34,172 nucleotides of DNA from contig JABGRQ010000030.1 in assembly GCA_018648225.1 (NCBI GenBank), positions 1 through 34,172 on the forward strand, written 5' to 3'. The DNA is from Chloroflexota bacterium (GTDB taxonomy: Bacteria > Chloroflexota > Anaerolineae > Anaerolineales > UBA11858). Position numbers and translations under genes: made by a program. A model generated the notes under the pieces. That model did not search any database. It was given only the letters and a program-made list of their open reading frames with translations, and was not told the origin of the DNA. Shown here one piece after another: positions 31,325 to 34,165 of the stretch. Position 1 is the stretch's first letter. Every line of letters begins with the position of its first letter.

Positions 31325-32236
31325 ATGCGTAGACGCGGATTACCGATGTTATGGGCGCTGATTGTATTAACCGCGTGTAGCCTGGGGGAACAGAATGCAC
31401 TGCCCACTTTGATTCCCGCCGAATATTTGCCAACTGTGATTGCCATGACAGCCGCCGCGCTGCCTACGCACACGCCCCCGCCCGTGCAAATAGCGCCGCC
31501 AACGGTGATGCCCATAACACCTACGATCAATGCTCCTACTGTGGCTGTGGAAACATCACTCCCCGCTGTGATTCAGATTCCTGAAGCCGAAATTCAAATT
31601 GTGCGGCCAGGGGCGCTCTCGAAAATTGTTTCGCCAATGTTGATGTCGATTTATGTCATCCCAGGGGCGGAGCGGAAAGCGACGGTGGAATTGTGGGGCG
31701 AGGATGGACGCCTGATTTATCGGCGCATTTTCACTTTTACGAATGTAAACGACCGCACGCAAATTTATGAGGAAATTAACTTTGAAATTGCGGGCGCGGC
31801 TGAAACAGCGCGTTTGGTTGCCAGCACGCACGATGAATATGGACGCGTCTTGTCGCTGGCTTCAACGCCAATAATTTTGCTGGCTGCGGGCGAAGAAGAT
31901 TTATATGCCGTGAATGATGTCATGGCCCCGATTCTGATTCAAAGCCCCTTGGAAAATGTGCTCATCCAGGGGACGGCCTTGCTGGTCTCGGGGGTGGCGC
32001 GCACACTTGATGATGAGCCTTTACTCGTCGAGTTGGTTGCTGCCGATGGGCGCGTGTTGGGTTCGCGTTTGGCTGGCTTTAGCCATTTTGAGCCGGGCAG
32101 GCACAATCTTTTTACCGTAGAAGTGCCTTTTGGGGTTTCAGTGCCAACCTGGGTACGCGTCATCGCTTCTGAGCGCAGCGGCGATGAAATTTCGCCGTTG
32201 AATAGTTCTTCGGTTGAGGTATTGCTCAGTCCTTGA
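31325..32236 (+). CDS. Lipoprotein of unknown function
   Basis: The product has 303 residues and a short signal peptide ending in the lipobox LTAC, with Cys18 as lipid site. A Thr/Pro-rich spacer (about 48-75) follows, then a mature domain of about 220 residues that looks like repeated beta-sandwiches. One half opens near 92 with IQIVRPGALSKIVSPMLMSI and the other near 204 with APILIQSPLENVLIQGTALLV. The two openings are similar (P-G/L, then SP, then strand). This recalls the Gmad2/immunoglobulin-like or spore-germination-type domains of envelope lipoproteins, but I cannot assign it. It is coupled to the receiver gene (2-nt gap). Its stop codon overlaps the -35 of the next promoter. Confidence 0.82.
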   Translation: MRRRGLPMLWALIVLTACSLGEQNALPTLIPAEYLPTVIAMTAAALPTHTPPPVQIAPPTVMPITPTINAPTVAVETSLPAVIQIPEAEIQIVRPGALSKIVSPMLMSIYVIPGAERKATVELWGEDGRLIYRRIFTFTNVNDRTQIYEEINFEIAGAAETARLVASTHDEYGRVLSLASTPIILLAAGEEDLYAVNDVMAPILIQSPLENVLIQGTALLVSGVARTLDDEPLLVELVAADGRVLGSRLAGFSHFEPGRHNLFTVEVPFGVSVPTWVRVIASERSGDEISPLNSSSVEVLLSP

Positions 32237-32260
32237 CAAATCGGACAAACCCGGTAGAAT
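32233..32260 (+). promoter_or_regulatory. Strong sigma-70 promoter of the cysteine synthase leader
   Basis: A perfect TTGACA at 32233-32238 and TAGAAT at 32255-32260 are 16 bases apart. The -35 overlaps the stop codon of the lipoprotein gene. Transcription would begin near 32267 and run through about 390 nt of untranslated, structured leader. Confidence 0.65.
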
Positions 32261-32293
32261 TTATATCAGAATTTTGATAATTATTCTGCGAAT

Positions 32294-32396
32294 CCAGACC
32301 TCCGATTTTAGCAATTTTGTCACCGTAGAAATTGTTTTGCTGTGACAACTCCGTTTGCTAAAAGTGGTTTTGGCAGAAATCTCGGAGGTCTTTTGG
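32294..32396 (+). terminator. Nested three-stem hairpin with terminator-like end
   Basis: Stem A pairs AGACCTCCGA (32296-32305) with TCGGAGGTCT (32382-32391). Stem B pairs TTTTAGCAA (32306-32314) with TTGCTAAAA (32355-32363). Stem C pairs TTGTCAC (32317-32323) with GTGACAA (32342-32348). The stems stack into a long arm with an unpaired 18-nt strand on the 3' side and end in TTTT. Stem A words are shared with the terminator at 25765-25808. It may terminate the receiver-lipoprotein unit or be part of the cysteine synthase leader. Confidence 0.5.
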
Positions 32397-32430
32397 AGTA
32401 ATATTATGATTTCATATTGCATCTGTATGG

Positions 32431-32570
32431 GGCGGGGTTCGTAGCGCTACCTTCCTCGTCACAGTATAACGATTTTTTACGGCCAATAGACTGACGAAGG
32501 GTAGTCGCGACCCCGCAAGCTCAAAGTATCCAACTTTGCAGCAGCGAGTCCGCTGCCCTTTTCTTTTTGT
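32431..32570 (+). ncRNA. Candidate structured regulatory leader or small RNA
   Basis: GCGGGGT (32432-32438) pairs with ACCCCGC (32510-32516). Inside it CTACCTT (32447-32453) pairs with AAGGGTAG (one bulged G), and CGTC (32457-32460) with GACG (32493-32496), leaving a 32-nt loop. A second hairpin follows (CAAAGT/ACTTTG, 32522-32538), then GCAGCG-AGTC-CGCTGC (32541-32556) before TTTTCTTTTT. The loop word ACGGCCAA (32479-32486) is complementary to TTGGCCGT (32575-32582), which stands right before a second T-run. Such alternative pairing is what an attenuator or riboswitch platform looks like. I cannot match it to a known class. Confidence 0.4.
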
Positions 32571-32653
32571 CTTTTGGCCGTTTTTTTATAGGAATGAGTG
32601 ATTAGGAGACAGGTAATCAGATTGTTGCCTTTTCGCTTTTTGGAGAATAAAAC

Positions 32654-33652
32654 GTGTTTACACAAAAAACTGTACAGGAATCTACCCCCTTGAATGCCCT
32701 GGTTCCTGATTACCAAATACTGAAGCCTCAAATTGGTACTATGGAGGGAATGCCGTTAATCCAGGCTGTGGGCAACACCCCGTTGCTGCCTTTGCGCCGC
32801 GTTGCCAGCCACATTTCCCCCGATGTCAAAATTTACGCCAAAGCCGAGTGGTTCAACCCTGGTGGCTCGGTCAAAGATCGCCCGGCTTTTAATATCATCC
32901 GCTCAGCACTCTTCGAGGGTCATTTGCTGCCAGGAATGCGCCTGCTCGATTCGACATCGGGCAATATGGGCATTGCCTACGCCACTTTCGGCGCGGCGCT
33001 GGATATCAAAGTTACGCTGGCGATGCCCAGCAATGCCAGCCCCGAGCGTTTGGCTATTCTGAGGGCGCTGGGCGCCGAAATCGTCTTCACCGACCCGCTG
33101 GAAGGCTCTGATGGGGCTATTCGCGTGGCGCGCCAGATGGCAGCCGAGCAGCCAGCGATATACTTCTACGCCAATCAATACGATAACCCTGCTAACTGGC
33201 AGGCGCATTATCACAGCACCGGCCCTGAGATTGTTGCCCAAACCTCGGGCGCAGTCACCCATTTTGTAGCCGGGTTAGGCACATCCGGCACTCTCACCGG
33301 GGCGGGCAGCTATCTCAGGGAGTATAATCCCCACATTCAGATCATTGCTGCGCAACCCGATTCCCCCTTCCACGGGCTGGAGGGCCTCAAGCACATGCCC
33401 ACCGCCATTCAGCCGGGCATCTTTGATTCCGCGATGCCCGATCAAACGCTCGAAATCCCCACCGAGTCAGCCCATGAAATGGTGCGGCGGCTGGCGCGTG
33501 AAGAAGGCTATTTTGTAGGCATCTCCTCCGGCGCGGCAGCCGTGGCGGCGCTTAAAGTTGCCGAACAACTTGACTCTGGCATGGTTGTGACCGTCTTTCC
33601 CGATGCGGGATACAAATATTTGAGCGATGAAACTTTATGGATTGAAAGTTAA
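32654..33652 (+). CDS. cysM: Cysteine synthase family protein (CysK/CysM type)
   Basis: This PLP enzyme makes cysteine from an activated serine and a sulfur donor. Its 332 residues show the start of the conserved fold at AVGNTPLLPLRRV (38-50) and the PLP lysine Lys74 in NPGGSVKDRPA. The substrate loop is STSGNMGIAYA (a Met where most have Thr), followed by GLGTSGTLTGAG and GISSGAAAVAA. The start is a GTG with GGAG 8 nt upstream; an internal ATG at 32741 has no such site. The JAMM peptidase gene immediately after suggests the sulfur donor may be a thiocarboxylated carrier protein, as for mycobacterial CysM, rather than free sulfide. A structured leader precedes it. The last codons and the stop lie in a heptamer-repeat hairpin. 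Confidence 0.88.
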   Translation: MFTQKTVQESTPLNALVPDYQILKPQIGTMEGMPLIQAVGNTPLLPLRRVASHISPDVKIYAKAEWFNPGGSVKDRPAFNIIRSALFEGHLLPGMRLLDSTSGNMGIAYATFGAALDIKVTLAMPSNASPERLAILRALGAEIVFTDPLEGSDGAIRVARQMAAEQPAIYFYANQYDNPANWQAHYHSTGPEIVAQTSGAVTHFVAGLGTSGTLTGAGSYLREYNPHIQIIAAQPDSPFHGLEGLKHMPTAIQPGIFDSAMPDQTLEIPTESAHEMVRRLAREEGYFVGISSGAAAVAALKVAEQLDSGMVVTVFPDAGYKYLSDETLWIES

Positions 33653-33700: not shown

Positions 33701-34165
33701 ATGACACTAGAAATTACAAAAACTCTATTGGATAAAATTGCCGCCCATCTGGAATCGGCCCACCCCGAAGAGGGCGCCGGTTTTCTGTTGGGACGCGCGG
33801 ACGCGGCCCGGCGCGTGGTGACTGCCATTTTGGCTTTGCCCAACTCCGGGGCGGATGTTGTCCGTCATAACCGCTACTTGCTGACCCCGCAAGATATGCT
33901 GCGCGCCGAAGACGAAGCCGAGCGCCTGGGGCTGGATATAATCGGTGTATTTCACTCGCACCCCGACTGCCCGAATGTACCCTCCGAGTTCGACCGTGAA
34001 TGGGCTATGCCCTGGTTCTCGTACATTATCACTCGCGTGGATGCCGGGCGCGCGGTTAGTTCGCGCTCGTGGCGGTTGAGTGATGATCGTTCACACTTTA
34101 GCGAAGAAGAAATTTTAGGTTCTATGGGAACTGAGGGGGTATACCCAGATGTGGGGGTGAAGTAG
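33701..34165 (+). CDS. JAMM/MPN+ metallopeptidase (Mec-like)
   Basis: This is a zinc isopeptidase-like enzyme of 154 residues with a complete JAMM site: catalytic Glu24 region in EEGAGFLLG, HSHP at 85-88 (His85, His87), then Ser95 and Asp98 in PSEFD. In actinobacteria the homologous Mec removes cysteine from the C-terminus of the carrier protein CysO after CysM has loaded it. The position directly after a cysteine synthase gene supports that role here. Removal of other ubiquitin-like tails is possible. The ATG has no Shine-Dalgarno, since repeat DNA lies just before it; coupling with the upstream gene is uncertain. Confidence 0.87.
   Translation: MTLEITKTLLDKIAAHLESAHPEEGAGFLLGRADAARRVVTAILALPNSGADVVRHNRYLLTPQDMLRAEDEAERLGLDIIGVFHSHPDCPNVPSEFDREWAMPWFSYIITRVDAGRAVSSRSWRLSDDRSHFSEEEILGSMGTEGVYPDVGVK

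Follow-up and report, generated by a model that had tools for sequence, protein, structure and literature searches.

A cysteine-codon leader peptide and competing RNA helices form a probable transcription attenuator before cysteine synthase in Chloroflexota

Results

We find that the leader of a cysteine synthase gene in a Chloroflexota bacterium is very likely a ribosome-mediated attenuator of transcription whose signal is the level of charged tRNA-Cys. Our computational analysis reveals, across the lineage, a short ORF with Cys codons, covarying pairings that compete with one another, and sulfur genes downstream. The leader lies in contig JABGRQ010000030.1 of assembly GCA_018648225.1, of which we analyzed a stretch of 34,172 nt, referred to here as the window; all features described below are on its forward strand.

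The leader follows a promoter of the form TTGACA-16-TAGAAT (32233 to 32260), which matches at 11 of 12 positions, and runs for about 387 nt from a predicted start near 32267 to the GTG at 32654, much as the original prediction had put it (a near-consensus promoter and about 390 nt of leader). Sites like this promoter would be expected by chance about once per kb; in relatives, a TTGACA/TATAAT-like promoter occupies the same place relative to the leader, directly before the core and without the large hairpin described below. The whole leader folds more stably than every dinucleotide shuffle (z −6.8), as does the core at 32395 to 32588, from which the large hairpin is excluded (z −4.9). Rfam 15 gave no match at the gathering score in the window, any riboswitch class included, and only chance-level matches to the leader.

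The large hairpin that had been counted among the attenuator-like folds is indeed present (about 32290 to 32397) and is more stable than its shuffles (z −5.5), but it stands outside the device. Since an arm of this hairpin (arms at 32296 to 32305 and 32382 to 32391) has 23 further matches in the same genome (E ≤ 1), several of them as close inverted pairs, and since the hairpin is missing from the leaders of relatives G001 to G003, it is most likely, judging from the sequences, an interspersed palindromic repeat (32286 to 32393, ends approximate) inserted outside the switch. As a candidate aptamer it was ruled out as a repeat insert.

In a DNA search of 101 genomes, most of the genus and parts of the family proved to have the core. 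A covariance model, R1, built from ten aligned relatives including the window (170 positions, 34 pairs), matched about half of the genomes sampled from the order (138 of 301); 33 of 298 genomes in a sample of the class, in which the order is represented too; and 30 of 400 in a sample of the phylum, all of them labelled as its own, the same order or the same class. The source genome holds one copy, and one genome of the same genus, G006, gave no R1 match. We read 165 places, which are among the matches listed for the order and class searches, with G436, G497 and G409 left out. When a fixed leader pattern was run over 84,980 species, with one genome each, it gave 108 matches in 107 stretches, all labelled Chloroflexota except one from Deltaproteobacteria (L217). 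This match and another from Dehalococcoidia (L298) look like chance matches inside genes, of which about 1.9 are expected. Since the pattern recovers only 49 of the 165 known places, diverged forms may occur elsewhere; the best reading of these matches is that the element belongs to Chloroflexota, mainly Anaerolineae. At one locus (L160:301-748), two tandem copies precede a single cysteine synthase.

In the window, the gene predicted to be regulated encodes a PALP cysteine synthase (32654 to 33652; Pfam PF00291, E 2.9e-70). It is followed by a gene for a Mec+-like JAMM/Prok-JAB protein (33701 to 34165; PF14464, E 1.4e-23), and the two are probably co-transcribed as one operon, a pairing that presumably recalls the CysM/Mec+ system of mycobacteria. 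Across the 165 places, the first downstream gene is cysteine-synthase-like at 136, with 98 showing at least 50% identity to the window protein and 38 falling below that. The other 29 comprise 12 rhodanese genes, 9 DUF4395 genes, 2 genes for O-acetylhomoserine sulfhydrylase, 2 for ThiF, 1 for a sulfur transporter, 1 for carbonic anhydrase, and 2 contig ends; for each type, Pfam named a single gene, and blastp to that gene assigned the others. Some genomes (G156, G226 and G235, among others) carry separate copies of the element before cysteine synthase and before rhodanese. The best reading of these gene neighborhoods is that the element heads a sulfur regulon in Chloroflexota.

The core contains a predicted leader peptide ORF, overlooked when the leader was originally described. 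It encodes MISYCICMGRGS in 12 codons (32406 to 32444), is preceded by a Shine-Dalgarno sequence, GGAG (32395 to 32398, by direct reading), that is conserved in close relatives, and contains the codons TGC ATC TGT for Cys-Ile-Cys (32418 to 32426, with the Cys codons at 32418 and 32424), which we propose as the stall site. The leader thus places, ahead of a biosynthetic gene, a short ORF that includes codons for the amino acid this gene helps to make. At all 165 places, the frame of the model holds C-x-C, typically in the form C-x-C-[LMP]-x-R-G, and a start codon no more than 15 codons away; the residue between the cysteines varies (L, M, I, S, T and others). The first Cys codon is TGC at 156 places and TGT at 9, and the second is TGT throughout, a conservation that is partly by construction among matches to a model trained on TGC..TGT. 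For this reason, a test of frames weighs more than the codon count. In the C-x-C frame, 155 of the 165 places have an open ATG no more than 15 codons upstream, vs 2 and 10 in the other two frames; for a stop codon within 9 codons, the counts are 154 vs 59 and 16.

The leader peptides have a median length of 13 aa. A clear Shine-Dalgarno sequence is present in 70 of the 165 leaders, and many have none. Among 151 loci where a promoter-like match was found, 11 (L117, L125, L128, L173 and others) have a −10 box that ends only 4 to 10 nt before the start codon assigned to the leader ORF, which may mean that these ORFs are leaderless. Two leaders depart from the usual motif, with C-x-C-C at L111 and C-x-C-x-C at L045. 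The preference for TGC in the first Cys codon and TGT in the second perhaps reflects a constraint of decoding speed or of pairing.

Downstream of the Cys codons, the RNA can be divided into regions with alternative partners. Region 1 (GGGGCGGGG, 32429 to 32437) can pair either with region 2 (32447 to 32461) or with the 3' portion of region 3 (GACGAAGGGTAGTCGCGACCCCGC, 32493 to 32516), and the stop codon of the leader ORF (32442) falls between regions 1 and 2. Region 3 alternates between region 2, with which it forms the antiterminator, and region 4 (TCCGCTGCCCTT, 32549 to 32560), the 3' strand of the terminator, which runs into T-run 1 (32559 to 32568). Enclosing the terminator is a distal helix of region L (CGGCCAATAGAC, 32480 to 32491) with region 5 (GTCTTTTGGCCG, 32569 to 32580), followed by T-run 2 (32581 to 32587); both T-runs are direct readings. 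RNAalifold on ten relatives returned the same terminator, 3:4, together with L:5 around it. Among 89 non-redundant relatives, T-run 1 has at least 5 T in 8 positions in 71, compared to 20 after shuffling, and T-run 2 does so in 86, a count that is biased upward because the model ends in T.

In a MAFFT alignment of 24 sequences, 14 of the 23 terminator pairs show double changes, with 48 cells against a shuffle mean of 13.4 and none of 500 shuffles as high, and sliding abolishes the signal. Covariation of the antiterminator 2:3 is weaker in the same alignment, partly because MAFFT misaligns region 2: 8 of 23 pairs show double changes, pairing stands at 81.8% vs 80.5% in shuffles, and the number of shuffles, out of 500, that score as high ranges with the measure from 2 to 32, being 5 for pairs with double changes. 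We also made an alignment-free comparison, in which the duplex energy of each leader's own partner is set against that of partners taken from other leaders. The set came from the 127 of 165 places with a CCCCGC-like anchor (38 were dropped), which reduced to 89 non-redundant leaders. The own partner was better for 1:2 (p 3.8e-6), 2:3 (p 4.8e-13), 1:3 (p 1.1e-5), 3:4 (p 3.6e-10) and L:5 (p 1.9e-14), whereas for the control pairings 2:4, 2:5, 1:4, L:4 and 3:5 it was no better than swapped ones (p 0.17 to 0.68). These p-values ignore kinship, which the five control pairings share. L:5 is the best-covarying helix.

The original prediction had described mutually exclusive pairings beside T-runs as typical of an attenuator and suggested a covariation search of homologous leaders. 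That search finds the pairings conserved among relatives and the terminator covarying, and together with the comparison of own and swapped partners it supports an antiterminator and an intrinsic terminator with a T-run that exclude each other. Two details had to be redrawn. The GCAGCG hairpin with its T-run exists (hairpin 32541 to 32556, with the T-run reaching 32568), but the covarying terminator pairs 32497 to 32510 with 32549 to 32560 and is not the local hairpin alone. The loop that can pair with bases ahead of the second T-run is also present, but the helix comprises 11 of 12 bp (32480 to 32491 with 32569 to 32580) and not 8.

To model how a translating ribosome would bias this choice, we folded the RNA as far as region 3 reaches and masked it with an assumed footprint of 12 nt beyond the start of the A-site, counting 2:3 as retained when at least 4 of its pairs were expected. 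With the ribosome on either Cys codon, 2:3 was retained in 88 of 89 leaders; with the ribosome on the stop codon, it was retained in only 18. For the window leader, the expected number of 2:3 pairs fell from 14.3 for a ribosome on the second Cys codon to 6.8 for one on the stop codon, so that part of this pairing persists there. When no ribosome was present, the fold favored 2:3 before region 4 appears in 80 of 89 leaders, so in the absence of translation the RNA would lean toward read-through instead of being firmly off, unlike the textbook trp case.

From these results, we infer the following mechanism. RNA polymerase would start near 32267, and a ribosome would translate the leader peptide. 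When cysteine is ample, the ribosome would reach the stop codon, where it would cover region 1 together with most of region 2; region 3 would stay free to pair with region 4 as a terminator before T-run 1. Region L would then zip with region 5 around the finished 3:4 hairpin, providing a second stop at T-run 2, and cysteine synthase would be off. A shortage of charged tRNA-Cys would instead stall the ribosome at the C-x-C codons; 2:3 would pair before region 4 is made, and with the terminator blocked, the operon would be transcribed. The enzyme would thus probably be made only when cysteine is short. A pseudoknot of L:5 with 2:3 looks geometrically possible and may also form.

Discussion

A ribosome-mediated attenuator has to be weighed against other readings of the same leader. 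The original prediction raised a cysteine- or O-acetylserine-responsive RNA, and in a broader form the conserved hairpin of regions 1, 2 and 3 would be the aptamer of a riboswitch that binds cysteine, O-acetylserine or another sulfur compound. Such a device would fit the high conservation of GCGGGG and region 3 and the alternative structures beside T-runs, but pairing with CCCCGC accounts for the conservation of GCGGGG, no Rfam class matches, and the conserved stretch holds an open frame, with a start, C-x-C and a stop, that is missing from the other two frames. We consider metabolite binding improbable; the likely sensor is the translated C-x-C leader peptide, and the leader is probably an attenuator, not a riboswitch. 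Cysteine as the signal, the other half of that earlier suggestion, gains support from the Cys codons as well as from the sulfur genes that follow. A marginally smaller chance goes to an arrest peptide, in which the nascent C-x-C-[LM]-x-R-G chain would itself sense a thiol, metal or redox signal and stall the ribosome. Known arrest peptides fill the exit tunnel, for which a median of 13 aa is too short, and the nearly constant R-G, which together with the likewise nearly constant C-x-C spacing and the invariant second Cys codon might have spoken for such a peptide, is explained by RNA structure since it sits on bases that pair with region 3.

Two further readings seem to us very improbable, and equally so. 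One is a T-box that reads uncharged tRNA-Cys directly, an idea suggested by region 3, which in some relatives reads AAGGGTGGTTGCGACCCCGC and resembles AGGGUGG, a sequence we take to be the T-box motif. However, Rfam gave no T-box match even at E ≤ 10, the window reads TAGT and not TGGN at that place, and the Cys codons lie within a frame predicted to be translated, with its own start and stop. The other is a stand-alone small RNA, 6S-like, that lies before the gene by chance. We first suspected a 6S or stand-alone RNA from conservation that spans promoter to terminator, and the element does have its own promoter, a terminator and a length of about 190 nt without the insert. This was set aside once a coding frame was found and the genome's only match to canonical 6S RNA (RF00013) proved to lie elsewhere (G000:C43:32424-32600); in addition, sulfur genes stand behind the element at nearly all places.

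The type of mechanism is already known. In the trp-type attenuator of proteobacteria, four regions compete, the regulatory codons lie near region 1, and the stop codon falls between regions 1 and 2. The leader described here shares all of these features; unlike the trp-type, its terminator is enclosed by L:5, which leads to a second T-run, and its 1:2 hairpin is weak. Mycobacterial polycysteine short ORFs, the subject of Canestrari et al. 2020, reportedly act as cysteine-responsive attenuators of operonic genes and are likewise short ORFs with Cys codons. By description, they are set apart as polycysteine, leaderless ORFs, whereas the Chloroflexota element has no run of Cys codons and places C-x-C in a conserved attenuator with an intrinsic terminator.

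In Rhodobacterales, uORFC-8-2 precedes cysS and has two conserved Cys codons and an intrinsic terminator, for which the source proposes ribosome-mediated attenuation (PMC8632094). An upstream ORF with two Cys codons and an intrinsic terminator is common to both systems. As that source presents it, uORFC-8-2 carries tandem Cys codons at positions 14 and 15 and occurs only before cysS in alphaproteobacteria, whereas here the Cys codons are non-adjacent, C-x-C comes early in a 12-codon ORF, many sulfur genes but no cysS are among the identified downstream genes, and an additional helix encloses the terminator. Candidate cys leader peptides of Actinobacteria also have Cys codons near the stop codon and lie before cys operons; no conserved terminator was found for them according to the source (PMC1262725), whereas the Chloroflexota leaders have a covarying terminator in competition with an antiterminator. 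Our literature search, with most subscription journals outside its scope, returned no description of cysteine attenuation in Chloroflexota, and the family, the lineage and the enclosing helix appear to be new. One Anaerolineae paper uses "leader peptide" for a TAT signal.

For RNA catalogues, the element would be a new family with strong covariation. It is a recognizable mark of sulfur genes across the class Anaerolineae, where most of the lineage records we met are metagenome assemblies, and it makes sulfur physiology testable there. A more far-reaching proposal, which we put forward tentatively and regard as rather doubtful, is a lineage-wide and so far uncatalogued Chloroflexota sulfur regulon under one RNA element that combines the C-x-C leader peptide with a two-stage composite terminator, in which L:5 would zip onto the terminator or, with the antiterminator, form a pseudoknot that locks the ON state. 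The element also predicts a cysteine-starvation regulon that would include DUF4395 and thioredoxin-like genes of unknown role. The DUF4395 genes stand behind the element at L056, L073, L089, L123, L135, L151, L158, L173 and L190, in several cases with a thioredoxin-like gene after them, which hints at a role in sulfur metabolism. At L131, a copy of the element precedes carbonic anhydrase, with no obvious sulfur gene there.
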